From positions 1 through 64,000 of the forward strand of contig JAIMBH010000013.1 of the NCBI GenBank assembly GCA_023511485.1: a stretch of 64,000 nt of DNA. The letters run 5' to 3'. The DNA comes from Bacillota bacterium (lineage in GTDB: Bacteria; Actinomycetota; Aquicultoria; Aquicultorales; Aquicultoraceae). Below the pieces are notes generated by a model. The model had not been told where the DNA came from, did not search any database, and saw only the letters and a list, made by a program, of their open reading frames with translations. The translations under genes were made by a program, and so were the position numbers. Positions 2,505-36,000 of this stretch are shown here, piece after piece; within the stretch, counting starts at the first letter, position 1; every line of letters begins with the position of its first letter.

Positions 2505-4328
2505 ATGAAAAGATTTGCAATAATAGGCGCTGGCGCTTTGGTATTACTGTTATTATTGCTAGGTACCGGATCAGTTGCTTTCTACAGCCAAGAATCAAAT
2601 TGCGTCAAGTGTCACGAGATGGAAAAGGACTATAGATCATGGCAAATGTCATCTCATAACCATGTAGCATGCGAGAGCTGCCATGCACGTACTACAGCAT
2701 CCTTCTCTATCCAGGGAACTGCAATGGGCAGGATTATTGCCCATTTTACCAAAAAAGATAAAAATCCTAAGGCTTATGTAAGCAAAGAGAACTGCCTACG
2801 TTGCCATGCTGGTATTAAGAAGAATATCAAGACGCTTCGCGATAGCCATATAGTCAATCCGCACCCGATTCACTTAGCTGCAGGTTTTGACTGTTCGCAT
2901 TGTCATAAGCGTGTTGCCCATGCAGACGGTGTAAATACACCGAGCAGACCTCAGATGAAGGATTGTATTAATTGCCACCGCGCAAAAGAAGTTTCAACCG
3001 AGTGTAAAACCTGCCATTACGGTACGCAGGAGCACTTGGATATAATCGCCCAAGCCGGAGGTTACGTTCTTAAGGAGGGCGAGGGTTGTGAGGTTTGTCA
3101 CACCGAAAAAGATGTGGACAAGCCTGACCATGGAAAAGCAATGCAAAACATAGGCGGATATACTGGTTCTGAAACCTGCCTGAAATGTCATGTGAACGCC
3201 GCTAAACAGATTGGAAGCTCTGCTCACGGTATGCTTAAGACAAAAGTTGCCCATGTCCCCGGCATAAAGGTGCCTATGGGTATGGCAAGCAAGGCTGTTA
3301 ACCCAATGGCGCTTAATCTGTGGGCCTCTTTAACTCCGTTAAAAGATGGAACGATGAAGAGTGGAACTTGCGGTAACTGTCATGTGGGCGGAAGCAATCT
3401 TCCGACACCGGAGATGGCTGCACCGGTGGATTGTCTAGTATGCCACGCGGAAAAATACGACTTTAGCAAGCGTCATGTTGAGAAGGTTGGGAACGTGTTT
3501 AAGTGGAACTACGAGCAGGGTCCTGAGGTAGCTGCATCGGTGGGTAAACCTAAGGCCGAGTATTGCTACCGTTGCCACGAAGATCATATGGCAGAAACCC
3601 GCGGCACTAAATACGAGCCTGAAGCTGACGTTCATGCTGAAGCAGGTATGTCTTGCCAGAGCTGTCACGTAACCATCTCCCACAAGATAGCTAAAGGCAA
3701 CGTTGCTGATCTGATGGCAAACGATATACCTGAGCTCTCCGTTTCCTGTACGTCATGTCACGTCGATTTCAAGCATGAAAATAAAAATATCGATACCCAC
3801 TTGAGCCGTCTTGCCTGCCAGACTTGCCATATTGGCAAAGTCGGTGGTTACTGGGTACAGGATAAGACTAAAGGACAGGATGACAACAACGACGGTGTAT
3901 TTGAGGATACCAAGGTGCACAAGGAAGGTTATCCAACTTACTTCTGGTTTAATGGCACCGCTACTGATAAGAACTTGCCGGTTGGAAGCAGAACCGACAA
4001 GAAAGCCAAGATCTTTCCATTTAAGGTCATCACGGTTATAAGTGGAGTCGATCCGAATACTAAGTTGCCGGTTGCAAGTGCTGCTGGTGTTTACTCCAAG
4101 ACGGGAGATTTTGCTGCTGCGGTTAAGGCTGCCGCGGCATCGAAGGGGCTACCAGAACCTAAGTGGATACCGCTTAAGAGCAATAAGGTTCAGCAATTAG
4201 ATCACCAGATACAAAAGATCGGTGTTAAATGTAATGATTGCCATGCAAAGAAAGGCATTATGGATTTCAAGGCTCTTGGTTATACGGACCAAGAAATCGA
4301 AGAGTTGACCCAGCCGCAGAATTACTAG
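2505..4328 (+). CDS. Membrane-anchored 15-heme c-type cytochrome, NapC/NrfH-like head
   Basis: A 607-residue protein with an uncleaved N-terminal membrane anchor (about 4-26) followed by an exported domain. I count 15 CXXCH heme-binding motifs, from residue 33 (CVKCH) to 576 (CNDCH). The first two, with EMEKDYRSW between them, match the quinol-oxidising NapC/NrfH head. Residues roughly 445-575 contain no heme motif and may form a separate binding domain. The start chosen is the ATG at 2505, behind AAAGGAGTGAG, not the upstream TTG. Likely role: passing electrons from menaquinol to an external or periplasmic-side acceptor. The acceptor is not evident, and octaheme or nitrite reductase identity cannot be shown. 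A strong terminator follows. Confidence 0.9.
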   Translation: MKRFAIIGAGALVLLLLLLGTGSVAFYSQESNCVKCHEMEKDYRSWQMSSHNHVACESCHARTTASFSIQGTAMGRIIAHFTKKDKNPKAYVSKENCLRCHAGIKKNIKTLRDSHIVNPHPIHLAAGFDCSHCHKRVAHADGVNTPSRPQMKDCINCHRAKEVSTECKTCHYGTQEHLDIIAQAGGYVLKEGEGCEVCHTEKDVDKPDHGKAMQNIGGYTGSETCLKCHVNAAKQIGSSAHGMLKTKVAHVPGIKVPMGMASKAVNPMALNLWASLTPLKDGTMKSGTCGNCHVGGSNLPTPEMAAPVDCLVCHAEKYDFSKRHVEKVGNVFKWNYEQGPEVAASVGKPKAEYCYRCHEDHMAETRGTKYEPEADVHAEAGMSCQSCHVTISHKIAKGNVADLMANDIPELSVSCTSCHVDFKHENKNIDTHLSRLACQTCHIGKVGGYWVQDKTKGQDDNNDGVFEDTKVHKEGYPTYFWFNGTATDKNLPVGSRTDKKAKIFPFKVITVISGVDPNTKLPVASAAGVYSKTGDFAAAVKAAAASKGLPEPKWIPLKSNKVQQLDHQIQKIGVKCNDCHAKKGIMDFKALGYTDQEIEELTQPQNY

Positions 4329-12981: not shown

Positions 12982-13887
12982 ATGAATATAAACCAGCTCA
13001 AGGCGTTCGTTAGCATAGTTGAAAAGGGAACTTTTTCGGCAGCCGCAAGGGGGCTAGGAATATCCCAGCCCGCCGTAAGCCTGCAAATACAGGCGTTAGA
13101 GGAGTTTCTTGGGGTTGATTTATTAGACCGCAGGACAAAGAAGGTCCAGCTTACCGAGGCTGGAAAGCTGTTTTACCCGACAGCCTTGCGAATTGTGGCT
13201 CAGGTTGATAGTGTCCAGCACCAGCTTGAAGAGCTTGGTGACCAAGTAAAAGGCAGACTTACAGTTGGCGGAAGCACCATCCCGGGCGAATATGTCCTGC
13301 CAAAGCTACTTGGGCGCTTTAAGAAAGAGTACCCGGATGTTTCTATCACGCTTAAGATTGCCGATACAGTCGAGATCACAGACCAGATTGTTTTAGGAGA
13401 ACTTCAGATCGGTTTAATTGGGGCCAAACCTGCTGCAGGGCAGTTGAGTGCCCAACCCTTCTTAAATGACGAGCTGGTATTCATTGTTCCGATGGGGCAC
13501 GAGTTTGCAGGCAAGAGGTCCATAAGCCTTGATGACCTACGTAAAGCGGATTTTATTATGAGAGAGCACGGCTCTGGCACACGCCAGACGATTGAAAGCC
13601 ATCTTTTTAAGCAAGGCTTAACTCTTGAAGACCTAAATATTGTGATGGAGCTCGGGAGTACCGAGGCAGTAGTCAACGCCGTAAGTGCTGGTCTTGGTGT
13701 CTCATTTGTTTCCAAGTGGGCTGCCGAAAGGTCGCTGAAACTGGGCGAGATATCGACGGTAAAGCTATCTGGAGTTGCGCTGGTCAGGGACCTTTACCTA
13801 GTTGTAGGGAAACATGCTCCCACAAGGTCGATGCAGGCGTTTCTCTCTTTTGTAGAAGCGCTTGATGTTAACGAGATAAAACCGTAG
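12982..13887 (+). CDS. LysR family transcriptional regulator
   Basis: A 301-residue LysR-type regulator. The helix-turn-helix is at about 1-60 (MNINQLKAFVSIVEKGTFSAAARGLGISQP). The effector domain contains GGSTIPGEYVLPKLLGRF and MREHGSGTRQTIE, features of the CysL/CbbR-like branch and of the LysR proteins often found with selenium metabolism. It lies just upstream of the tungstate/Moco block and in the same genome region as a selenocysteine enzyme, so either role is plausible. The ATG follows TAGGAGGAAC. The effector is unknown. Confidence 0.85.
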   Translation: MNINQLKAFVSIVEKGTFSAAARGLGISQPAVSLQIQALEEFLGVDLLDRRTKKVQLTEAGKLFYPTALRIVAQVDSVQHQLEELGDQVKGRLTVGGSTIPGEYVLPKLLGRFKKEYPDVSITLKIADTVEITDQIVLGELQIGLIGAKPAAGQLSAQPFLNDELVFIVPMGHEFAGKRSISLDDLRKADFIMREHGSGTRQTIESHLFKQGLTLEDLNIVMELGSTEAVVNAVSAGLGVSFVSKWAAERSLKLGEISTVKLSGVALVRDLYLVVGKHAPTRSMQAFLSFVEALDVNEIKP

Positions 13888-14037
13888 TGTAAAGGGTCTG
13901 GGGACCAGGATTCAGGGTCTAGGGTTAAAGAGGCCAAAAGCCAAAAGGGAAGCATTGTCATTGACAAGCAAAGCTGAAATGAATTGTAGACGTTGCAATT
14001 TTAGTTTATGCTAATAAAGTAAATAATTTAAATACAA

Positions 14038-14164
14038 GCAGACTCCGACCCGACATCCCTAAGGCGTGGACTATGGGATCAGGGCGCCGGACTTGTTGAC
14101 GACAAGACAACGGCCAGGGTTGAGCTGGAAACGGCTTTGCCTCCCGACTTTGGAAAGGAGCCTT
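14038..14164 (+). promoter_or_regulatory. Moco-type riboswitch, first of a tandem pair
   Basis: The sequence carries the conserved 3' block GCCTCCCGACTTTGGAAAGG, which I recognise from the molybdenum-cofactor riboswitch of moaA leaders, together with an upstream CTCCGACCCG and AAGGCGTGGACTATGGGA. CTCC (14043-14046) can pair with GGAG (14157-14160) to close the element. An extra hairpin, CTTGT/ACAAG at 14092-14106, is present here but absent in the second copy. A terminator follows at once, suggesting transcriptional control. Confidence 0.8.
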
Positions 14165-14196
14165 GATTTTAGGCAGTGCCTTAGATTTAGATTTGG

Positions 14197-14236
14197 CACC
14201 GGTCTTTCCTTTGGGTGGCCGGTGTTTTTGTTCTTT
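14197..14236 (+). terminator. Intrinsic terminator between the two riboswitches
   Basis: An 8-bp stem CACCGGTC/GGCCGGTG (one G-U) with a 12-base loop is followed by GTTTTTGTTCTTT. Its place directly after riboswitch 1 fits an expression platform acting before the second riboswitch and tupA. Confidence 0.75.
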
Positions 14237-14253
14237 AATAGATCAGCAATATA

Positions 14254-14352
14254 GGCTCTCCGAGCCGGTGCGCCTAAGGTATCGACTATGGCAGCCGGCC
14301 GATAGGGTTAGGATGGAAACGTTCTGGCCTCCCGTGTTTGGAAAGGAGAAGT
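14254..14352 (+). promoter_or_regulatory. Second Moco/tungsten-cofactor-type riboswitch covering the tupA ribosome site
   Basis: It repeats the element: CTCTCCGAGCCGG, CCTAAGGTATCGACTATGG and the 3' block GCCTCCCGTGTTTGGAAAGG. It is about 25 bases shorter than copy 1 between the conserved blocks. Closing pairs would be CTCC (14258-14261) with GGAG (14345-14348), which is the ribosome site for the TTG at 14355. Ligand binding would therefore hide it (translational control). The shorter core resembles the form reported for tungsten cofactor, which suits a tungstate transporter (inference). Confidence 0.78.
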
Positions 14353-14354
14353 AG

Positions 14355-15227
14355 TTGAAGAAGTTTGCCTTTTTATTTGTGATTGTTGCCTTGTTCTTGA
14401 TTGCTTTTAGTATCACTGGATGCTCAGGACAACAGAAAGCCGCTACAAGTACGTCTAATGAAACCACTAAACCTACTAAGAAAGCGACTATCATTTTAGC
14501 CACTACGACCAGTACCAAAGATACCGGGCTTTTGGATGTACTCATTCCCGCTTTTGAGAAAAAGACCGGGTATACAGTGAAGACAGTGGCGGTTGGAACC
14601 GGTGAGGCTTTAAAGATGGGTGAGCGGGGCGACGCTGATGTGCTTCTTGTACATGCCCGCCAGTCTGAGGACGAGTTTATGGCTAAGGGCCTTGGTAAGG
14701 TAAGAGAGGACGTTATGCACAACGATTTTGTGCTGGTCGGCCCAAAGAATGACCCAGCCAGGACTAAAGATGCCATGAGCGCAGCCCAAGCTTTTAGATT
14801 TATCGCCTCTAAAAATGCAACTTTTGTTTCCCGTGGGGATGACTCGGGCACTCATAAAAAAGAGCTCAGTATCTGGGCAAAAGCCGGGGTGAAACCTGCT
14901 GGGAGTTGGTATATAAGCACCGGTCAGGGTATGGCAGCGACTATACGCATAGCGAATGAGAAACAGGGATATACGCTTTCTGATAGGGGCACCTACCTTG
15001 TCCAGAAAGGCAACATTGATCTTGCTATCGTACTCGAGAAGAAGGAAGACCTTCTTAATCCATACGGCGTCATAGCGGTCAATCCAGATAAGTTCCCAAA
15101 GGTTAATTACAAGGGGGCTATGGCGTTTGTAAACTACGTAACTTCTGATGAAGGACAGAAGATAATCGCGAATTTCGGCAAGGATAAGTATGGAGAGCCA
15201 TTGTTTGTGCCAGACGCAAGGAAGTAG
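14355..15227 (+). CDS. tupA: Tungstate ABC transporter substrate-binding lipoprotein
   Basis: A 290-residue lipoprotein. The signal ends in a lipobox, SITGCSG, so the protein sits on the outer face of the membrane. The mature part starts with the TupA signature ATTTSTKDTGLLD and continues with VGTGEALKMGERGDADVLLVHA, which separates TupA from ModA. It binds tungstate (and less well molybdate) for import by TupB and TupC. The TTG start lies six bases after GGAG inside the second riboswitch. Confidence 0.92.
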   Translation: MKKFAFLFVIVALFLIAFSITGCSGQQKAATSTSNETTKPTKKATIILATTTSTKDTGLLDVLIPAFEKKTGYTVKTVAVGTGEALKMGERGDADVLLVHARQSEDEFMAKGLGKVREDVMHNDFVLVGPKNDPARTKDAMSAAQAFRFIASKNATFVSRGDDSGTHKKELSIWAKAGVKPAGSWYISTGQGMAATIRIANEKQGYTLSDRGTYLVQKGNIDLAIVLEKKEDLLNPYGVIAVNPDKFPKVNYKGAMAFVNYVTSDEGQKIIANFGKDKYGEPLFVPDARK

Positions 15228-15362: not shown

Positions 15363-16076
15363 ATGGAGCTATTATTTGAAGGAATCAAGCAAGCATTGAT
15401 ATTGATATTTACGGGTGATCCCTTGGTGATTGAGGCGACGCTTCGTTCATTTGAAACATCGGGGAGCGCTGTTTTGATATCTTTGCTTCTGGGGTTGCCC
15501 CTTGGGCTATTGCTTGCACTTGCCAGATTTCCGGGGAGAAATTTAATTATTTCAATAGTAAACGCCGGTATGGGTCTGCCTCCGGTTGTTGTTGGACTCT
15601 TCGTTGCTATACTTCTTTGGCGCTCGGGAGTCTTAGGGTTTTTGGGCTTGATGTATACGGTGCCAGCTATGATAATTGCCCAGGTTATCATAGCTATGCC
15701 GCTGGTGGTCGGCCTTACTGTTTCCGCTGTTCAGCAGCTTAACCCAAAGCTTAAGCTCCAAGCACTTGCTCTTGGCGCGAGTAAAGTGCAGATGCTTATA
15801 ACGCTGGTAAAAGAGGCCAGGCTGACTGCACTTGCTGCAGTAATCGCCGGCTTTGGCGCGATTATATCAGAGGTCGGAGCCGTTATTATGGTCGGCGGCA
15901 ATATAAGCGGCCAGACGAGAGTTTTGACAACAGCAATCGTCGAGCTTGTCGGCAAGGGAGATTTCAGTCGTGCCCTTGCCCTAAGCTTTATTCTTCTTGC
16001 TATTACCTTTGCTGCAACTTATGCACTGACTCTTTATCAGCAAAAGGAGGCGGGAGTTTGGCGCCGTATCTCGTAG
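15363..16076 (+). CDS. tupB: Tungstate ABC transporter permease
   Basis: A 237-residue integral membrane protein with about six membrane helices. The cytoplasmic coupling loop contains LKLQALALGASKVQMLITLVKEA, matching the EAA motif of importer permeases. Size and order between tupA and tupC match TupB. It ends overlapping the ATPase gene by 19 bases. The start is the ATG at 15363 following TTGAGGGTTGC. Confidence 0.92.
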   Translation: MELLFEGIKQALILIFTGDPLVIEATLRSFETSGSAVLISLLLGLPLGLLLALARFPGRNLIISIVNAGMGLPPVVVGLFVAILLWRSGVLGFLGLMYTVPAMIIAQVIIAMPLVVGLTVSAVQQLNPKLKLQALALGASKVQMLITLVKEARLTALAAVIAGFGAIISEVGAVIMVGGNISGQTRVLTTAIVELVGKGDFSRALALSFILLAITFAATYALTLYQQKEAGVWRRIS

Positions 16077-17152
16077 TCGAAAATCTTATTAAGCGGTACG
16101 GGCAAAAGCAGGTTTTAAACGTGAAACGGTTGGCCGTGGACCGAGGTGAGGTGCTTGCTGTAATCGGGCCAAACGGCTCGGGCAAAAGCACGCTCCTTCG
16201 CTTAATCGCGCATCTTGAAAAGCCGACCAGCGGAACCATCAATTTTGCTGGATTAGATGGTGCAAGAGACGAGCTTGCTATCCGCAGGCGACTCGCATTC
16301 GTGTTTCAAGAGCCGCTTCTATTTACGGGAACCGTTTTTGACAATATCTCTTATGGATTGAGGATGCGTAAAACCGCAAGAAGTGAGATAAGAAAAAGAG
16401 TTCAAGATGCAGCTGAGATGTTTGGAATTGCGCATCTATTAAATTGGCCTGCCAATCTTCTCTCGGGTGGTGAGGCACAAAGGACATCGCTTGCACGGGC
16501 ATTTGTCCTTGAACCTGAGTTGCTGCTTCTTGATGAGCCGATGGCCTCGCTTGACCCGCCGACACGCGAGTCGCTAATCCGTGACCTCAGCGAAGTGCTT
16601 GGGAATAAGAAGACGACCGTGGTCTATGTAACGCATGAGCTTAACGAGGCCATGATGTTGGGCAAACGCTGTGCATATATCGATGAGGGGCAAGTTATGC
16701 AAATCGGGAGCCCGCGTGAGGTGATGGTTAACCCGATCAATAGGAGAGTGGCCGATTTTGTTGGCGTTGAGAATATTATCAAAGGAAGAATCGTTGGGCG
16801 AGAAAACGGTGTTGTTAGGGTAAAGGTAAACGGTTTAGAGATTGAAGCCCTCAGCAAAAGTATAACGGCCGATAAAGTTTGGGTGTTTATCCGGCCTGAA
16901 AATGTTACTATAACATTGTCAGATTCTGTTAACTCAACAAGTGCGCGGAATCGCTTTTCGGGAGCTGTAGTAAAGATTCTGGACTTAGGAGCACTCTGCC
17001 GTGTGGTCGTCGACTGTGGCTTTTTGCTGGCTGCGCTTGTAACTAAGCGAGCGGTAGAGGAAATGGGTCTTTATGTGGGGCAAAGGGTATGGTTACTGTT
17101 TAAAGCAACCGGAGTGCATATAACGTCGCGCGAAGGAGAACGTGCGCACTAG
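16058..17152 (+). CDS. tupC: Tungstate ABC transporter ATP-binding protein with C-terminal oxyanion-binding (TOBE-like) domain
   Basis: A 364-residue ATPase. Walker A is GPNGSGKST, the signature LSGGEAQRTSLARAF, Walker B LLLLDEPMASLDP, and the switch histidine is in YVTHELNEA. Residues about 235-364 (ENIIKGRIVGRENGVVRVKV and on) form a TOBE/Mop-like domain as in ModC and WtpC. Such domains can bind molybdate or tungstate and inhibit transport, so feedback is likely. The TTG start at 16058 follows AAAGGAGGCGGG and overlaps tupB. Confidence 0.9.
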   Translation: MAPYLVVENLIKRYGQKQVLNVKRLAVDRGEVLAVIGPNGSGKSTLLRLIAHLEKPTSGTINFAGLDGARDELAIRRRLAFVFQEPLLFTGTVFDNISYGLRMRKTARSEIRKRVQDAAEMFGIAHLLNWPANLLSGGEAQRTSLARAFVLEPELLLLDEPMASLDPPTRESLIRDLSEVLGNKKTTVVYVTHELNEAMMLGKRCAYIDEGQVMQIGSPREVMVNPINRRVADFVGVENIIKGRIVGRENGVVRVKVNGLEIEALSKSITADKVWVFIRPENVTITLSDSVNSTSARNRFSGAVVKILDLGALCRVVVDCGFLLAALVTKRAVEEMGLYVGQRVWLLFKATGVHITSREGERAH

Positions 17153-18566
17153 AAATAAAATGTCCGTAAATAAAGCTGAAATGATAGCAGTTGGTGAAAC
17201 CAGGCAAACAAAAGATATGGGTGCGATTATACTTGCCGGAGGCAAAAGTAGCCGCATGGGTCGGGATAAGGTTGCAGTTCTGTTTCGGGGCGAGCCTCTC
17301 CTTATTAGGGTTATTCGCATACTCAAAGAAATGTTTGGCGAGGTAATTGTCGTTAAAAATCAGGATATACCTTTTGAGTTAGATGTGTCCAAAGTAGTCC
17401 AGGATGAGGTTCCTTATCAAGGCCCGCTTGGCGGTATAGCCGCCGGGCTTAAAGCGTCGTCTTATGAGACGAATCTTGTTGTTGCAGTTGACATGCCTCT
17501 TATAAGTCCTCAGGTCGTAGGTTATCTAGCAGGTCTAACCGGTGAGGCAGATGTTGTTGTTCCGAAGACTGGCGATGGCCTTGAGCCACTTTTCGCCTTT
17601 TACAGTAAACGCTGCCTGCCGGCTATTGAGAAAACCCTGAAGGACGGTGAGCGCAAAGTAATATCGTTCTTCCCGCATATTAAACTAAGGGTTGTAAACT
17701 ACGCAGAGGTAAGCCATCTTGACGGGGCGGATAAGACTTTCGTAAACATCAATACCGAGCGCGAGCTAAAAAGAGTCGAGCACAACCTTGATGAGGATGA
17801 AGAAGGATGTTTTAAGGTTTTAGACCGTGAAACCGGTGACCCTCGCATGCCGGTTGAAAGGCCGGTGACAATATACCTCAACTCGGAAGAGCTTGTAACA
17901 GTGCAGACGAGTATGGAGCACTTAGACGAGCTTGCTTGCGGCTTTCTTGTTTCCGAAGGAATGCTTCAGGATAGAGGCGAGCTCGTTGATATCCGTGTCA
18001 ATGAAGACCGTGGCGAAGTAAGGGTGCGAACTGCAAAACCTAAAGAGAATGCGGTGCAATCCATGGGGAAGCGTTTTGTAACGTCTGGCTGCGGTAAAGG
18101 TTTTTCTTTTGTAAGCCTTGGTGATGCTATGGGCATCGCAAGGCTTACCAGCGAATTTAGAGTTGCGGCTGAAGATATCCCGATTTTTATGAGAGAATTC
18201 CTGTTGAGTAGCCGCCGCCCTGGCATGCACTCTTCTGCTTTAGCAAGAGATGGCAAGATAAAGCTAATCCGTCAGGATATCGGTAGGCATAATACGGTTG
18301 ATATGGTACTTGGAAGGCTCTTTCTAGATGGTATTCAGGAAAGGGATGTAATGCTCTTTACGACGGGGCGTATCTCTTACGAGATGGTGGTAAAGGCGGC
18401 CAAGGCAAGAATTCCGGTTCTGGTATCGCGCACAGCGGCAACTACGCTTGCTGTGGAACTTGCCAATAGGCTTGGAATCGAAATAATCGGATATGTGCGC
18501 GGGGAGAAAATGAAGGTGTATACCGGTGCAAGCAGGTTGTTGACCGAGGGGGAAGGGATAGTTTGA
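17142..18566 (+). CDS. MobA-FdhD fusion: molybdopterin guanylyltransferase plus formate dehydrogenase sulfurtransferase
   Basis: A 474-residue two-domain protein. Residues about 27-205 are MobA: GAIILAGGKSSRMGRDK, a nucleotide-binding loop, then VDMPLISP; this domain attaches GMP to the molybdenum or tungsten cofactor. Residues about 225-474 are FdhD: DELACGFLVSEGML, VTSGCGKG with the sulfur-carrying cysteine, RPGMHSSALA, DIGRHNTVDMV and TTGRISYEM. FdhD hands sulfur to the cofactor so that formate dehydrogenase is active. Only one cysteine of the E. coli CxxC pair is kept, as in many FdhD proteins. The GTG start behind GAAGGAGAAC overlaps tupC. The fusion joins two consecutive steps of formate dehydrogenase maturation. 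Confidence 0.92.
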   Translation: MRTRNKMSVNKAEMIAVGETRQTKDMGAIILAGGKSSRMGRDKVAVLFRGEPLLIRVIRILKEMFGEVIVVKNQDIPFELDVSKVVQDEVPYQGPLGGIAAGLKASSYETNLVVAVDMPLISPQVVGYLAGLTGEADVVVPKTGDGLEPLFAFYSKRCLPAIEKTLKDGERKVISFFPHIKLRVVNYAEVSHLDGADKTFVNINTERELKRVEHNLDEDEEGCFKVLDRETGDPRMPVERPVTIYLNSEELVTVQTSMEHLDELACGFLVSEGMLQDRGELVDIRVNEDRGEVRVRTAKPKENAVQSMGKRFVTSGCGKGFSFVSLGDAMGIARLTSEFRVAAEDIPIFMREFLLSSRRPGMHSSALARDGKIKLIRQDIGRHNTVDMVLGRLFLDGIQERDVMLFTTGRISYEMVVKAAKARIPVLVSRTAATTLAVELANRLGIEIIGYVRGEKMKVYTGASRLLTEGEGIV

Positions 18567-19786
18567 TAAGCGTTGATGAGGCTCGTGAGATTATCCTAAG
18601 CAAAATAGACAGGCTCTCTACTGAGGAGGTGCCGATACTTGATTCGTTGGGCAGAGTCCTTGATGAGGATATCATCTCCGAGAGCAATATCCCACCGTTT
18701 GATAACTCGTCGATGGATGGCTATGCTGTGCGCTCGGAGGATACTGCAGGTGCATGGCCGGCTGGGCCGGTTGAGCTAAAGGTGCTTGGTAACCTTGCCG
18801 CGGGCTATGTGCCAGAGAGCTCCATTGGTAAAGGTGAGGCGATTCGCATTATGACTGGTGCTCAGATGCCAGAAGGGGCTGATGCAGTGGTTATGGTTGA
18901 AAATACCGAAAAAACCAACGGCGGTGTTTTGATATTTACCCCGGTGAAGCCGGGCGAGAACGTGCGCTTTGCAGGTGAAGATATCCGGGTCGGAGAAGTC
19001 GCTTTAAGACGGGGCAAAAAAATAACCCCCGGCGATATCGGTATGATAGCTAGCGTAGGCAAGGCAAGGGTAAAAGTCGTAAAACGGCCAAAAGTCGCGA
19101 TAATCACAACGGGAGATGAGCTTATCAATATCGACGAACCGTTGGCGCCGGGAAAGATAAGAAACAGTAATGCTTACTCAATTGCTGCCCAGGTAATCGA
19201 TACGGGTTGTATCCCTTTGATGATTGGTATTGTAAGAGATGCGAAGGAGGATCTCATGGCAAAAGTCAGGCAAGCTATAGAGGAAAGCGCCGATATGATT
19301 ATCACGACCGGCGGTGTTTCAGTTGGCGATTACGACTTTGTAAAAGATATCATAAAACAGGCGGGCGAGGTAGTCTTCTGGCAGGTTGATATGAAGCCAG
19401 GGAAACAGCTTGCATTTGGCATCATAAAAGAAATACCGGTTATCAGTCTTCCAGGTCATCCAACGTCCTCAATGGTAAGCTTTGAGCAGTTCGCTCGCCC
19501 GGCGCTGCTTAAAATGAGTGGGCGAACCGATATCGCACGCATGACGGTTGAAGCGGTCTTCCAGGGTCCTCCGTTCGTAAACAAGACTGGGCGCCGCAAC
19601 ATGCTTCGAGCTGTTGTAACTAAGGAAGACGGCGTATTTAAAGCAAGGCTAAGCGGCTTATTGCAATCAGATGGTTTAAAGGCAATGGCGCTTGCAAATG
19701 GCTTAATGGTCATGCCGGAAGATGTTGAGGAGATAAAAGCCGGAGATAAAGTTACCGTGCAGTTGTTTGAGCCTATTACGGGATAG
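18563..19786 (+). CDS. moeA: Molybdopterin molybdenumtransferase
   Basis: A 407-residue MoeA, which inserts molybdate (or tungstate) into adenylylated molybdopterin. It begins with the MoeA domain, SLGRVLDEDIISESNIPPFDNSSMDGYAVR. It continues with RIMTGAQMPEGADAVVMVE, and the MogA-like domain carries TTGDELI, TTGGVSVGDYDFV and LPGHPTSSM. It starts at TTG 18563, overlapping the stop of the MobA-FdhD gene. Expected length for the family. Confidence 0.94.
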   Translation: MISVDEAREIILSKIDRLSTEEVPILDSLGRVLDEDIISESNIPPFDNSSMDGYAVRSEDTAGAWPAGPVELKVLGNLAAGYVPESSIGKGEAIRIMTGAQMPEGADAVVMVENTEKTNGGVLIFTPVKPGENVRFAGEDIRVGEVALRRGKKITPGDIGMIASVGKARVKVVKRPKVAIITTGDELINIDEPLAPGKIRNSNAYSIAAQVIDTGCIPLMIGIVRDAKEDLMAKVRQAIEESADMIITTGGVSVGDYDFVKDIIKQAGEVVFWQVDMKPGKQLAFGIIKEIPVISLPGHPTSSMVSFEQFARPALLKMSGRTDIARMTVEAVFQGPPFVNKTGRRNMLRAVVTKEDGVFKARLSGLLQSDGLKAMALANGLMVMPEDVEEIKAGDKVTVQLFEPITG

Positions 19787-19828
19787 CCGGAAATATCAAA
19801 TTAAATGTTGACCGATAAAATCTAGAAA

Positions 19829-19976
19829 CATTGATGTACCAAAGTGCTAATGCCCGTGCTCTAGTGCTGTAGTTTGCTAGTGTGGTAGATAAGAAATATT
19901 AACTGGCAATTGGTAACTGGTGGACTAAGTAGCCTTACTTGAACTTAGTACTTTGGAGCATTAGCACATCAAGATG
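19829..19976. repeat. Dispersed intergenic repeat, family 1, copy B (long form)
   Basis: The left arm is TTGATGTACCAAAGTGCTAA and the right arm CTTTGGAGCATTAGCACATC, together an imperfect inverted repeat about 145 bases long. The interior includes AAGAAATATTAACTGGCAA, shared exactly with copy A at 12763-12914. It lies between moeA and the small gene before mobB. Confidence 0.72.
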
Positions 19977-19992
19977 TGACATGGAGGTCTAT

Positions 19993-20175
19993 ATGAGCAA
20001 ACTAACCGAAGACATTTTGAAGAAAATAGAAGAGGCATCTAAAGATAAGCGGTTATCTTGCACTGCTGCGCGAAAAGTTGGAGAGGAGTTGGGTATCCCG
20101 CTTCGCCAGGTTGGTGAAGCCTGTGATGAGCTTGGGATAAAGATCTTTGCCTGCGAGCTGGGATGTTTTAAATGA
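19993..20175 (+). CDS. Small conserved-looking protein ahead of mobB
   Basis: A 60-residue protein, MSKLTEDILKKIEEASKDKR followed by LSCTAARKVGEELGIPLRQVGEACDELGIKIFACELGCFK. The middle looks like a small helix-turn-helix; three cysteines lie at the two ends. Similar short proteins next to mobB are familiar to me, but I know no function. The ATG at 19993 has GGAGG upstream; the longer frame starts inside the repeat and is rejected. Its stop overlaps the mobB start (ATGA), so translation is coupled. Confidence 0.75.
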   Translation: MSKLTEDILKKIEEASKDKRLSCTAARKVGEELGIPLRQVGEACDELGIKIFACELGCFK

Positions 20176-20669
20176 TACCGGTTGTCTCGGTAGTTGGAAA
20201 ATCAAACGCGGGCAAGACCACTTTTCTCGAGAAGCTTATTGCTGAGCTAAAGGCAAGGGGCTACCGTGTCGCTACCATCAAGCACAACGTACACGATTTT
20301 GAAATAGACCATCCAGGAAAAGACACGTACCGTCATGCAAAAGCCGGAGCAGATACGGTAATCATCGCTACGGCACACAAGATGGCGATGATAAAGAAGC
20401 TAGATAAAGAACTGCCGATTCAACACATTGTCGAATTGGCAGGTGCGGGGCATGACCTTATCATCACCGAAGGATATAAGCGGGGGCCGTTTCCAAAAAT
20501 AGAGGTCTCACGAAAAGAAGTCTCCAGTGAGCTTATCTGCTCTGAGGATGAGTTAATCGCACTTGTCACAGACCACCCGTTTCCGATAGACATCCCGCAT
20601 TTTGGCTTAGATGATGCAGGAGGCTTGGCAAACTTTTTGGAGAAGAGGTTCTTGCGACAGAGCCGGTGA
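20172..20669 (+). CDS. mobB: Molybdopterin-guanine dinucleotide biosynthesis protein MobB
   Basis: A 165-residue P-loop GTPase, VVGKSNAGKTTFLEKLIAEL, with KHNVHDFEIDHPGKDTYRHA and LIITEGYKRGPFPKIEV, the family motifs. MobB assists MobA in making the dinucleotide cofactor. It overlaps the small gene upstream by four bases and is followed at once by moaA. Confidence 0.92.
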   Translation: MIPVVSVVGKSNAGKTTFLEKLIAELKARGYRVATIKHNVHDFEIDHPGKDTYRHAKAGADTVIIATAHKMAMIKKLDKELPIQHIVELAGAGHDLIITEGYKRGPFPKIEVSRKEVSSELICSEDELIALVTDHPFPIDIPHFGLDDAGGLANFLEKRFLRQSR

Positions 20670-20680
20670 GAGGGGCAAAC

Positions 20681-21652
20681 ATGGACGAGCTTATCGATAA
20701 GCATAACCGCAGGACAGATTACTTGCGAATATCCGTAACGGACCGGTGCAACCTGCGCTGCTATTACTGCATGCCAAAGGAAGGCATACATCAAAGACCA
20801 CACTGTGATATCTTAAGCTATGAGGAGATCAAAAGATTTGCCGTAGCCGCTGTATCCGCCGGTATGTCAAAAATAAGGCTGACTGGAGGCGAGCCTCTTG
20901 TAAGGAAAGACGTGGTCAAGTTAGTCGAGATGCTTGCCGCCATCCCAAACCTAAAAGATATCTCACTTACGACAAACGGTGTGCTCTTGCCCCGGTTCGG
21001 TGCCGATTTAAAGCGGGCGGGTTTGCAAAGGGTAAATATAAGCCTCGACAGCCTGGACCCTAAGGTCTACCGCAAGGTTACTCGGGTCGGAAATATCGAA
21101 GATGCGCTTGCCGGGCTCAATAGCGCTCTTGAACTTGGGTTTGACCCGGTTAAGATAAACGTTGTTCTTATGCGCGGCATAAACGATGAACCCAAAGACT
21201 TTGTTAGGCTTATCTATGATTATCCGGTCCATGTCAGGTTTATTGAGCTTATGCCAGTCAGCATGCAAGATCCTGGGCTTTACGTCTCAATCGATGAGCT
21301 TAAGGTTAGGCTTGCGCGCTACGGTTTATTTGAAACGATTGGAGGGCCGATAGGGAGCGGCCCGGCTAACTACGTTACATTTCAGGGTGCGCTTGGCACT
21401 ATCGGGTTTATCAGTCCGATCAGCAACCATTTCTGTGCAAGCTGCAATAGGCTTCGTCTCACACCAGATGGCAAACTTAGAACATGTCTCTTCTCGGATG
21501 AAGAATTTGACATAAAGCCCGTCCTTCGCGATAACTTTAGCAAGGAGGAAATTGCTTCGTTTATCCGAGGCGTTCTTGAAAGCAAGCCGGAGAAACACGA
21601 TATCGCAGAGCGGATTAAGACGAACAGGCTTATGTACCAGATAGGGGGGTAA
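20681..21652 (+). CDS. moaA: GTP 3',8-cyclase (molybdenum cofactor biosynthesis protein A)
   Basis: A 323-residue radical SAM enzyme making the first cofactor intermediate from GTP. The N-terminal cluster motif is CNLRCYYC and the C-terminal one [18 protein letters not shown]. The GTP-binding [11 protein letters not shown] is present. The usual terminal di-glycine is also here (YQIGG). The ATG at 20681 follows GAGGGGCAAAC; a GTG at 20666 is possible. Confidence 0.94.
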
Positions 21653-21653
21653 G

Positions 21654-22163
21654 ATGGCAGATCGCTGGAGAATTGCAGAAGAAGAATTGAAAGCAATGAC
21701 GCATTTTAACAAAGAGGGCCGGGCGCAGATGGTTGATGTAAGCAACAAATCTATCACGGCAAGAACGGCGGTGGCGCGAGGTGTGGTTAAGATGAGACCT
21801 GAGACGCTTAAGCTAATAAAAGATGGTGCGATCAAAAAAGGCGATGTGCTGGCTGTCGCGCAGGTTGCCGGCATTATGGGCGCAAAAAAAACGCCCGATC
21901 TTATCCCGATGTGTCACCCCTTACAGATAACTGGCGTTGATATCAACTTCTCACCGCTCTCTGATACCGAGCTAGGCATAATGGCGATAGCAAAGACTAT
22001 GGATAGAACAGGCGTTGAGATGGAGGCTCTAACTGCTGTCTCCATCGCCGCCCTTACTGTTTATGATATGTGCAAATCGGTCGATAGGACAATGGAGATT
22101 GGCGATATAGAGCTAGTTGAAAAAACGGGCGGAAAGAGTGGGGATTGGAGAAGAGATTTTTAG
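21654..22163 (+). CDS. moaC: Cyclic pyranopterin monophosphate synthase
   Basis: A 169-residue MoaC, the partner of MoaA. The core starts at [19 protein letters not shown] and contains the active-site [14 protein letters not shown] and [21 protein letters not shown]. There is a 14-residue N-terminal extension if the ATG at 21654 is used, supported by the GGGGGGTAAG ribosome site; the internal ATG at 21696 gives the usual length. Confidence 0.94.
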
Positions 22164-22179
22164 ATGGAATCTAATTAAG

Positions 22180-22234
22180 GCAGGGCTAAAGTCCTGCGCT
22201 ACACTTATTTGATTCGGGCTAAATCCTGCACTAC
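22180..22234. repeat. Dispersed GCAGGGCTAAAGCCCTGC-type palindrome, two tandem degenerate copies
   Basis: GCAGGGCTAAAGTCCTGCGC (22180 on) and CGGGCTAAATCCTGCACTAC (22215 on) are variants of the perfect copy at 58469-58491. Others lie at 27590-27613 and 29738-29753. They sit between moaC and the MOSC gene. Confidence 0.75.
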
Positions 22235-22271
22235 AAGCTAGATGCTAGCAGCTGTATTGAGGTGGCATAAA

Positions 22272-22724
22272 TTGAGAGATGGTAAAGCAAAAATCGTATC
22301 GGTAAATATAAATCCCAAAAAGGGTGTGAGAAAAATGCCGGTTGCGCACGCCAAGGTCGTTGCCGATTATGGGCTTGATGGTGATGCGCATGCTAAGAAT
22401 TGGCACAGACAAGTTAGCCTTCTTGCGAAGGAGAGCATAGATAAGATGGTCGCTATGGGTCTGGATGTCGGTCCCGGCGATTTTGCAGAGAATCTTACAA
22501 CACAAGGCGTTGACCTTCTTACGCTTCCGATTGGGACAAGGGTTAAGATAGGCTCAGACATTGTTTTAGAAGTAACGCAGATAGGAAAAGAATGCCACAC
22601 TAAATGTGCAATTTACCGGCAGGCTGGGGATTGCGTGATGCCAAAAGAAGGCATCTTTGCCAGGGTAGTCCGGGGCGGGCAGGTAAGTGTGGGCGATGAT
22701 TTAATTATCGAGGGTGAAAAATGA
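22272..22724 (+). CDS. MOSC domain protein
   Basis: A roughly 150-residue stand-alone MOSC domain, the sulfur-carrier C-terminal domain of molybdenum cofactor sulfurases. Visible: VVADYGLDGDAHAKNWHRQVSLL, GPGDFAENLTTQGVDL, and the conserved cysteine in ECHTKCAIYRQAGDC. Single-domain MOSC proteins are common in Moco operons and probably bind or hand over sulfur or cofactor. A TTG start is chosen because GAGGTGG lies seven bases upstream; the ATG at 22242 has no ribosome site. Confidence 0.85.
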   Translation: MRDGKAKIVSVNINPKKGVRKMPVAHAKVVADYGLDGDAHAKNWHRQVSLLAKESIDKMVAMGLDVGPGDFAENLTTQGVDLLTLPIGTRVKIGSDIVLEVTQIGKECHTKCAIYRQAGDCVMPKEGIFARVVRGGQVSVGDDLIIEGEK

Positions 22725-23236
22725 AACTGCAAGGTGTAAAAGTTGCTGTACTGACTATTAGTGATAAAGGCTCGCGTGGAGAGCGTGAGGATACAAGCGG
22801 CCCGGCAATCAGGGAAATCGTCGAGGCGGAGGGAGCCAGTGTGGTTTCCTACGAGGTCATACCTGATGAGCAGTATGAGATCGAGGAGCGAATGGTGCAC
22901 CTCGCCGATTTTGAAGATGTCGATTTGATTTTAACTACCGGCGGAACAGGTTTTTCCTCCAGGGATGTAACACCTGAAGCGACCTTAGCAGTTATCGAGC
23001 GGCTTGCTCCGGGGTTTGCTGAGGCTATCCGGCATGAGAGCCTCAAAATAACACCCCATGCGATGCTCTCAAGAGCGGTTAGCGGTATAAGGGGCCAGAC
23101 CATCATAATAAACCTTCCCGGAAGCCAAAAAGCAGTGCGCGAATCGCTTTCTGTTATTATGCCTGCGCTGCCACATGGTATCCAAATTCTTAAGGGCCAA
23201 ACTGGTGAGTGTGCCACAAATAAGCATGTCAAGTAA
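22721..23236 (+). CDS. mogA: Molybdopterin adenylyltransferase (MogA/MoaB family)
   Basis: A 171-residue protein with KVAVLTISDKGSRGEREDTSGPAI, LTTGGTGFSSRDVTPEAT and INLPGSQKAVRESL. It activates molybdopterin with AMP before MoeA acts. MogA and MoaB cannot be told apart with certainty here; the role is the same. It overlaps the MOSC gene by four bases and ends the Moco operon. Confidence 0.9.
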   Translation: MKLQGVKVAVLTISDKGSRGEREDTSGPAIREIVEAEGASVVSYEVIPDEQYEIEERMVHLADFEDVDLILTTGGTGFSSRDVTPEATLAVIERLAPGFAEAIRHESLKITPHAMLSRAVSGIRGQTIIINLPGSQKAVRESLSVIMPALPHGIQILKGQTGECATNKHVK

Positions 23237-33068: not shown

Positions 33069-36000
33069 GTGAATGCTAAGCTTACGAGAAGGGACTTCCT
33101 AAAAACAACGGGCGTAGTTTCAGCTGCTCTTCTTCTTGATCTGGGTTTTGATCTTACAGATGTTGAGGCAGCTACAGAAGAGCTAAAGATCAAGTACGCA
33201 AAAGAAACACCTACGATTTGTCCCTACTGCGGTGCCGGCTGCGGAATTGTTGTTCATACGCAGAATGGCAAAGTTATCAATACGCAGGGAGACGCCAACA
33301 ACCCAATCAACCAAGGCTCGCTATGCAGCAAGGGGTCCTCTCTTTTCCAAGTGGCTATCAATAAGCGGCGAATGACAAAGCCGCTTTACCGCGCTTCGGG
33401 CAGCGACAGATGGGAAGAGAAAGACTGGGAATGGGTTCTTGATCGAATTGCCCAGAATGTAAAGAAGACAAGAGATGCGAGCTTTATCGCCCAGGAGAAT
33501 GGGATCACAGTAAACCGTACTGATTCCATTGCTTCTATAGGTGGTGCAGCGCTCGACAACGAGGAATGTTATCTTCTCACAAAACTGATGCGTGGACTCG
33601 GTGTTACGTTTCTTGAACACCAGGCTCGCATATGACATTCGGCCACGGTGGCCGGTCTTGGCCCCTCGTTTGGCCGTGGTGCAATGACAAATCACTGGAT
33701 TGATCTAAAAAATACCGACTGTGCTTTAATAATTGGCAGCAATGCTGCAGAAAACCATCCGATGTCATTTAAGTGGCTGACGAAGGCAAGGGAGGAACGT
33801 GGTGCAAAAATAATCAGCGTCGACCCGCGTTTTACCAGAACGGCATCTAAGTCTGATTACTATGTATCAATTCGCCCTGGTACCGATATCGCTTTTATTG
33901 GTGGATTGATCAATTATATCCTGGAGAACAATCTTTACTGGAAAGACTATGTCGTTAACTATACAAATGCAGCCCTTATTGTAAATGATGGTTATACTTT
34001 TAACGACGGGCTCTTTAGTGGTTATGACGCGACAAATAAGAAATATGCCGTAGATACCTGGACTACCAAAAACGATCCCGATGGCAAGCCGCTAAAAGAC
34101 ACAACGCTACAGCACTCACGAACCGTCTTCCAGCTACTTAAAAAGCATTACTCGCGCTATGATGTTGATACCGTCTCAAAAATAACCGGTGCGCCAAAGG
34201 ATTCTTTTATTAAAGCAGCCAAAGCTTTTGCGGCAACTGGAAGGCCGGATAAATCGGGGACAGTACTCTATGCCATGGGTATTACCCAGCACACGGTTGG
34301 CTCCCAAAATGTCCGGGCACTCTCTATCCTGCAACTGCTTCTTGGAAATATAGGTTTGCCAGGTGGTGGAATAAACGCTCTTCGCGGCGAGTCTAATGTC
34401 CAGGGATCGACAGATATAGGCCTTCTAAGTCATCTGCTGACAGGATATCTTAACGCTCCTACCAATGAACCAGCTTATGCCAATCTAGCAGCCTATCTCG
34501 CAAAAGAGACTCCTAAAACCGGATACTGGTCGAACAAGCCCAAGTTCATGGTTAGCCTTCTCAAGGCATGGTGGGGAGATAATGCAACGGCAGCAAATGA
34601 GTTTGCTTACCAATATCTGCCAAAACGTGATGCTAAAACAAACTACACGCACATCGGCGTGTTTGAGGCACTATATGAGGGAAAAATCAAAGGCATGTTT
34701 TCTTTTGGTATGAATCCGGTAGTTGGTGGCCCAAATGCTAACAAGGAAGCTAAAGCTTTAGAGAAGCTTGACTGGCTAGTTGTAGCTGACCTCTGGGAGA
34801 CGGAGACTGCTGTGTTCTGGAAGCGTCCTGGTGCAGACCCAAGTAAAATCAACACGGAAGTATTCTTTCTGCCGGCAGCCTCTTCGATTGAGAAAGAGGG
34901 AACGATTTCAAACAGCGGTCGTTGGATACAGTATCGTTGGAAAGCAATCGATCCTATTGGTGAATCAAAAAGCGACCTGTGGATGATCGACCAGATTGCG
35001 AAGCGCGTTAAGAGGCTTTATGCAAACAGCAATAAGCCTCAGGATGAGCCTATCAAATATCTTACTTGGGGCTATGGTGTAAAAGAAGAGCCCGACGTCG
35101 AGAAAGTAGCCCTTGAGATGGGTGGCTATGAGGTTGCAACTAAAAAACCGATGGTGACATTTGGCGATCTGAAAGAAGACGGCTCCACCGCTTGTGGTGT
35201 CTGGATTTGGGGCGGAATCATGAAGGAAGGCAAGTATCTTGCCAAGCGGCGTGACACCAAAGACGAAAGCGGAATCGGGAGCTATCTTAACTGGTCTTTT
35301 GCCTGGCCAGTAAACCGCAGGATTCTCTACAACCGTACTACCGCAGATTTAAACGGAGTACCCTGGAGTGAGGATAAGAAAGTTATCTGGTGGGATCCGG
35401 CGGCAATCGACGCAAAGACAGGAAAGCCCGGAAAATGGGTTGGCAAAGACGTGCCTGATTTTAATGCGACACTTGCGCCAACTGATCCATCTGGAGGTGG
35501 TATAAAGCCATTCATCATGCAAGCAAATGGTCTCGGCGCCCTCTTTACCGATAAAATGAAAGAAGGGCCTTTCCCAGAGCACTATGAGCCGGCAGAGAGT
35601 CCGACTAAAAATCTTCTTAACAAGGTACAGCTAAATCCGGCGGTTAAAATTCCGGCCACCGCTATGAATAGCGTTGGCGATACAAAAAAGTATCCTTTTG
35701 TTGCTACAACATATCGGCTCTCTGAACATTGGCAGGCAGGTGCTATGACCAGAAATCTACCATGGCTTGCCGAGCTGATGCCGGCTATGTTTGTGGAGTT
35801 AAGCCCGAGTCTTGCTAAAGCCAAGGGCATTAGTAATGGGGATAAGGTAAAAGTCAGTTCAGCCCGTGGTGAGATACAGGCATATGCTCTTGTAACTGAG
35901 CGCGTGCAATCCCTAAAAGTTAATGGCGGAGAAGTAGAGGTAATTGGGATTCCCTGGCATTTTGGCTTTCAGGGTATTGCCATCGGCGACAGTGCTAACA

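Follow-up and report, generated by a model that had tools for sequence, protein, structure and literature searches.

A tandem of Moco-family riboswitches with and without P3 in the leader of a tupA-like gene of an Aquicultoraceae bacterium

The locus and its genes

The window, which is the whole 64,000-nucleotide stretch of contig JAIMBH010000013.1 (assembly GCA_023511485.1; Aquicultoraceae, Actinomycetota) that was analysed, contains a leader preceding a tungstate importer and a run of cofactor genes in the same direction. The two aptamers, with P3 present in one and absent from the other, the terminator, the ribosome site within P1 and the gene order are seen in the sequence as follows:

12,982 to 13,887, plus strand: LysR regulator gene (NF040786, selenium-metabolism-associated LysR), upstream of the leader and syntenic in the family
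14,031 to 14,176, plus strand: element 1, RF01055 aptamer with P3 (cmscan, folding)
14,043 to 14,046 with 14,157 to 14,160, plus strand: element 1 P1 (folding)
14,049 to 14,084, plus strand: element 1 P2, with the CCUAAG/UAUGG receptor
14,086 to 14,114, plus strand: element 1 P3, GCCG...CGGC with the inner CUUGU/ACAAG hairpin
14,117 to 14,142, plus strand: element 1 P4, with a GAAA tetraloop
14,140 to 14,159, plus strand: 3' domain of the element 1 aptamer, CCUCCCGACUUUGGAAAGGA, with a computed alternative pairing to 14,202 to 14,219 (proposed antiterminator of the ligand-free state)
14,143 to 14,153, plus strand: element 1 P5 (folding)
14,197 to 14,233, plus strand: element 1 intrinsic terminator, stem CACCGG..CCGGTG followed by a T-run; its 5' half (14,202 to 14,219) is the antiterminator partner
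14,246 to 14,364, plus strand: element 2, RF01055 aptamer without P3 (cmscan, folding)
14,257 to 14,261 with 14,345 to 14,349, plus strand: element 2 P1 (folding)
14,264 to 14,299, plus strand: element 2 P2 (folding)
14,300 to 14,304, plus strand: element 2 J2/4, CGATA, in place of P3
14,305 to 14,330, plus strand: element 2 P4 (folding)
14,331 to 14,341, plus strand: element 2 P5 (folding)
14,345 to 14,348, plus strand: GGAG, ribosome binding site of tupA, inside the 3' strand of element 2 P1
14,355 to 15,227, plus strand: tupA-like gene for a tungstate-binding lipoprotein, TTG start
15,363 to 16,076, plus strand: tupB, importer permease (annotation)
16,058 to 17,152, plus strand: tupC, importer ATPase (annotation)
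17,142 to 23,236, plus strand: mobA-fdhD fusion, moeA, mobB, moaA, moaC, MOSC and mogA, in the direction of the tup genes

The order tupABC-mobA/fdhD-moeA-mobB-moaAC-mogA behind the leader is a gene context characteristic of Moco riboswitches. Much of the order from LysR to mogA is kept in family relatives and in a genome of a sister family (G326), and therefore the cofactor genes are probably read from the tup leader. The downstream gene is tupA-like, as the first-pass annotation had stated: its product matches NF041772 with 268.7 bits, which is under the strict cut-off of 400 of that model, and therefore tungstate selectivity is not guaranteed. The closest solved structure is the tungstate-binding protein 3lr1, and alignment to 3lr1 and 3muq shows conservation of the TTTS motif and, within the SRGDxSGTH stretch, of the binding-site Arg. 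In the TupA of Desulfovibrio this Arg is required for the binding of molybdate, and the native protein has pM affinity for tungstate and nM affinity for molybdate (PMC5517513). The closest named TupA relatives are found in Candidatus Aquicultor and Actinomycetota genomes. With the TupA motifs and the matching permease and ATPase, the three genes form a TupABC system.

A PF13531 search of the genome returned no ModA or WtpA, and therefore TupABC probably imports both metals. It is probably the sole dedicated importer for molybdenum and tungsten, with FecCD-type molybdate importers lying outside that search. Two other SBP matches were considered as ModA and rejected, since one resembles PstS and the other a PBP domain fused to MoeA. 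The tungsten enzyme AOR was not found in the genome of the window, which encodes four molybdopterin oxidoreductases that could use molybdenum or tungsten; an in-frame TGA occurs in some of them. Xanthine-dehydrogenase-type molybdenum enzymes (PF02738) were not found in the Aquicultor family genomes examined. Within the window, a long frame at 33,369 to 35,006 (plus strand) carries a molybdopterin oxidoreductase domain and an in-frame TGA; these features, taken with the selenium-type LysR beside tup, suggest a selenocysteine-containing enzyme, for example a formate dehydrogenase. Elsewhere in the window, a DUF3800-IX RNA (RF02968) is matched at 1,127 to 1,197 on the minus strand with 52.8 bits, over the cut-off.

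Two RF01055 aptamers and their predicted platforms

Both segments belong to the Moco family of Rfam (RF01055), as had been proposed, with cmscan scores of 69.0 bits (E 1.6e-14) for element 1 and 76.1 bits (E 1.3e-16) for element 2 against a gathering score of 36 bits. A whole-genome search found no third copy beyond these two. By folding, the core stems P1, P2, P4 and P5 are present in both elements, with a GNRA tetraloop in P4 and a receptor in P2, and GGAAAC and CCTAAG/TATGG occur in each. The Moco fold is obtained for either segment by itself without constraints; element 1 then has four arms (P2, P3, P4 and P5) and element 2 three. The extra hairpin described in the first-pass annotation (CTTGT-TGACG-ACAAG, 14,092 to 14,106) was recovered to the base in element 1 and has no counterpart in element 2, so that the stem sets differ by P3. 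It is close to certain that the leader holds two RF01055 aptamers, one with P3 and one without. The absence of P3 between P2 and P4 places element 2, and not element 1, in the P3-lacking subclass, and its CGATA joint is the same P2-P4 joint that is seen in most of the P3-lacking elements collected. In every P3-plus family member examined the P3 helix is paired, though its sequence differs between relatives.

The predicted platforms are arranged as in a bi-mechanism tandem, with a terminator on the upstream element and GGAG within P1 of the downstream one. The terminator noted after element 1 is a hairpin of -16.7 kcal/mol (stem 14,197 to 14,224) followed by a T-run (14,225 to 14,233). A simple terminator scan listed nothing on either strand, this terminator included, because its stem and loop fall outside the rules of the scan. 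The ribosome site was likewise located where it had been placed, in P1 of element 2 and six bases 5' of the TTG at 14,355.

An antiterminator for element 1 is plausible. In eight Aquicultor-family leaders the 3' domain of the aptamer (CCUCCCG..GGAAAGGA) is predicted to base-pair with the terminator's 5' half; this duplex (-13.6 to -20.5 kcal/mol) occurs in all eight of the family leaders that have a terminator after a P3-plus aptamer. In the window, the computed energies are -70.3 kcal/mol for the antiterminator fold and -66.9 kcal/mol for aptamer with terminator, a gain of 3.4 kcal/mol, and therefore a ligand would be needed for the flip; in the same-genus species G007 the difference is 6.4 kcal/mol. 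The fraction of shuffled platforms as good as the duplex is 0.005 to 0.21 per single species, which is modest, and G001, G004, G008 and G009, half of the eight leaders, retain aptamer and terminator in their minimum-energy fold without ligand. The case for the antiterminator is therefore carried mainly by its recurrence in relatives, which are not independent of each other.

Each element resembles a published form. Element 1 shares P1 to P5, the GAAA tetraloop and the receptor with the P3-containing form of RF01055 (Regulski 2008, PMC2408646), of which some published members also have a downstream terminator platform; it differs in preceding a tungstate-importer gene in series with a P3-lacking member. 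Element 2 resembles the P3-lacking Tuco/Wco variant (Regulski 2008) in having the core without P3 and in its position before tupA, but it is the second member of a mixed tandem rather than alone or beside another P3-lacking copy. Its ribosome site is hidden in P1, as published for E. coli moaA.

Leaders in relatives and other lineages

Elements were collected with a covariance model of P3-lacking elements combined with folding of the P2-P4 segment; an anchor regular expression was dropped as the element finder as it missed many elements. Computation and comparison support the orthology of the leaders and their modular gain and loss, as well as the antiterminator. The species G007 has the identical order of P3-plus aptamer, terminator and P3-minus aptamer over the Shine-Dalgarno (SD) sequence, and in the window and G007 both elements are intact (69 to 79 bits) with conserved core and platform. 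Four genomes (G001, G002, G004 and G009) have the P3-plus aptamer and terminator only, and G010 has only the P3-minus aptamer at the SD, without element 1. In G003 (L132 and L019) element 1 is kept, element 2 ends after P4 and a new free SD lies downstream; this leader is a fossil of the loss of translational control. G005 (A. secundus) is a hybrid in which the P3-plus aptamer sits directly at the SD. In G008 (L134, minus strand, about 2,948 to 3,045) the 3' half of the aptamer occurs once more after the terminator, reading P4-P5-GGAAAGG before the start codon and lacking the 5' half. These partial losses suggest that the elements behave as separable modules. Compared with P3 excised, element 2 is nearest to element 2 of G326 (73-78%), which makes it an old component of the order; in G326 itself, element 1 has no P3.

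Mixed series are also found outside the family. Three genomes that belong to the same class, G100, G141 and G335, have a P3-plus aptamer with terminator and then a P3-minus aptamer with terminator before wtpABC. A 62-residue Cys-rich open frame lies between the two aptamers (L129, L130 and L131, minus strand), reading MSSASCSLDKVREMVKEK...YGCQLGCF in L129. It has no confident NCBIfam or Pfam family and may encode a small regulator linked to metals that only the first switch controls. In G096, from another family of the phylum, the order is reversed, with a P3-minus aptamer and terminator and then a P3-plus aptamer just before tupA, its SD just outside P1. The two copies of G096 lie at 734 to 838 and 987 to 1,117 of L127 and are 87% identical outside P3, and the first is 93-94% identical to the P3-minus copies of G323, which points to a gain of P3 in the second copy. 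Pairs of two P3-minus aptamers before tupA are commoner (G326, G064, G323, Desulfoscipio and one Tissierellia genome). Mixed pairs in Desulfotomaculia were considered and rejected, as the doublets examined lack P3 twice; in one doublet from Syntrophomonadaceae, the second copy forms a weak hairpin resembling P3.

P3, metal identity and the combined reading

The first-pass annotation had named a link between the absence of P3 and the tungsten cofactor, and this matches the literature. In Regulski 2008, the P3-minus form goes with tungsten, with a near-perfect segregation of P3 with molybdenum or tungsten metabolism. The P3-plus RNA of E. coli did not respond to the tungsten cofactor, and deletion of its P3 abolished regulation and did not switch the metal. 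Direct binding of Moco by the family was not demonstrated in this founding paper. Our literature search found no direct test of P3-lacking Moco RNAs as sensors of the tungsten cofactor, which is a correlation from 2008. Where the downstream gene could be identified in the Actinomycetota sample, P3-minus elements stand almost exclusively before tup or wtp operons, the exceptions being one mobA-like and one FecCD-type context. P3-plus elements precede mobA/moaA, moeA, modA and a FecCD-type system, and also tup in several lineages, and therefore P3-plus may not mean molybdenum only. These contexts agree with the rule that P3-minus means tungsten and weaken the reverse rule. Within the family, the expected link between P3-minus and AOR was not found: G000 (the genome of the window) and G007 have P3-minus elements and no AOR, and G001, G002, G004 and G005 have AOR and only P3-plus elements. 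The selection between molybdenum and tungsten cofactors by P3 is a correlation.

The leader may be a heterotypic, bi-mechanism tandem of two OFF switches. When element 1 is ligand-free, its 3' domain would form the antiterminator with the terminator's 5' half. With ligand, the aptamer would retain this domain, and the terminator would halt the polymerase before the whole run from tupABC to mogA. In element 2, ligand would close P1 over the SD of tupA and switch translation off. Termination would affect all genes downstream, and the SD block presumably mainly on the tungstate-binding protein because tupB starts 136 bases further on. Control of transcription and then of translation is likely on this evidence. 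Element 1 would most likely answer the molybdenum cofactor and element 2 the tungsten cofactor, giving NOR-like control with different reach; here we infer a single transcript, the ligand identities and the logic, taking the OFF direction from the platforms and the difference in ligand from P3 alone. That the inputs are two different cofactors is an evenly balanced proposition, and the whole explanation, including the bi-mechanism pair, both inputs and the NOR-like logic, likewise has about an even chance of holding. Against NOR logic, abundance of one cofactor would deprive the cell of the other under a strict gate. That the two cofactors are read in series stays at the level of a hypothesis, because P3-minus elements do not track AOR and P3-plus elements precede tupA elsewhere; it is better supported than at first because the mixed architecture recurs. 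A broader form, in which the P3-plus element reads the molybdenum cofactor and ends operon transcription, the P3-minus element reads the tungsten cofactor and blocks translation of tupA alone, and P3 is an evolvable metal selector gained or lost in one tandem copy in separate lineages, is tentative, at somewhat less than an even chance.

Both elements might instead sense one cofactor, or not distinguish molybdenum from tungsten, so that the pair would sharpen control at transcription and then at translation. Several lines fit this: the frequent P3-minus doublets before tupA, the P3-plus elements before tupA in other lineages and the lack of correlation between P3 status and AOR in the family. 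Moreover, published Moco and Wco tandems are classed as pseudo-cooperative, and sharpened control has been proposed for SAM-II/SAM-V and homotypic Moco tandems. A single cofactor gives no reason, however, why three lineages keep aptamers of different structure in series, nor why P3-minus elements are nearly confined to tup and wtp leaders, and this explanation is a real but lesser possibility. P3 itself could be structurally neutral, inserted at a permissive J2/4 point, with the element type reflecting lineage history without functional meaning. Its sequence and length vary freely, and one copy of G096 differs from its close sister mainly by P3. The persistence of pairing despite sequence turnover, the published segregation of P3 with metabolism and the effect of its deletion in E. 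coli make neutrality quite improbable.

The pair could also be decaying or transitional, with element 1 taking over from element 2 as the ancestral tup switch, or element 2 from element 1, and no combined logic. The truncated element 2 of G003, its absence from the four genomes with the P3-plus aptamer and terminator only, the absence of element 1 from G010 and the hybrid of G005 are what such turnover would leave behind. Since both elements are intact in the window and G007, and the mixed series recurs elsewhere, decay is unlikely.

Tandem Moco riboswitches are already known; new here is the mixed P3-plus/P3-minus pair with two predicted mechanisms. Tandem Moco RNAs were described in S. wolfei and G. 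metallireducens, including a three-fold P3-lacking series (Regulski 2008). In the passages of Sherlock 2022 (PMC9481103) consulted, Moco doublets, Moco triplets and Wco tandems are all entered as pseudo-cooperative, and bi-mechanism pairs appear only for SAM classes. A mixed Moco/Wco pair or a bi-mechanism Moco pair was not found in the passages of literature searched. The homotypic tandems (the all-P3-lacking S. wolfei triplet, G. metallireducens and the Sherlock 2022 doublets) likewise repeat the family in one leader with separate platforms, but each is of one type and pseudo-cooperative, whereas the window pair mixes types and mechanisms. The SAM-II/SAM-V tandem (Sherlock 2022) also has its terminator on the upstream element and its downstream element over the ribosome site; its two classes bind one ligand, whereas the two forms of one class in the window may bind cofactors with different metals. 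The SAM-I/AdoCbl NOR gate before metE (Sudarsan 2006, cited through PMC9481103) is similar in having two serial OFF switches, which in the window may answer two ligands, and differs from the window pair, which consists of two forms of one aptamer class with unequal reach and putative ligands. If the two elements read different metals, they would be an RNA system able to distinguish cofactors in which a single atom is exchanged for another of almost the same size, and one riboswitch class would supply both inputs of a gate. The leaders of the window and G096 offer matched natural pairs for tests of metal preference that require no sequence design.

Other arrangements were seen among the collected leaders. 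Four P3-plus elements (L167, L173, L174 and L175) have a P2 without the usual CCUAAG receptor and a P4 loop that is not GAAA, in line with the published finding that receptor and GAAA loop are lost together. In one actinobacterial group (L094, L096, L101, L110, L114 and L119), an open frame of ~275-360 residues lies between riboswitch and tupA, and that of L119 resembles a P-loop protein. Moco-family RNAs that lie head-to-head on the two strands, with about 80-150 bases between them, occur in G064 (C3, 750,396 to 750,719; L176), G314, G285, G148 and G221, as if serving divergent operons.
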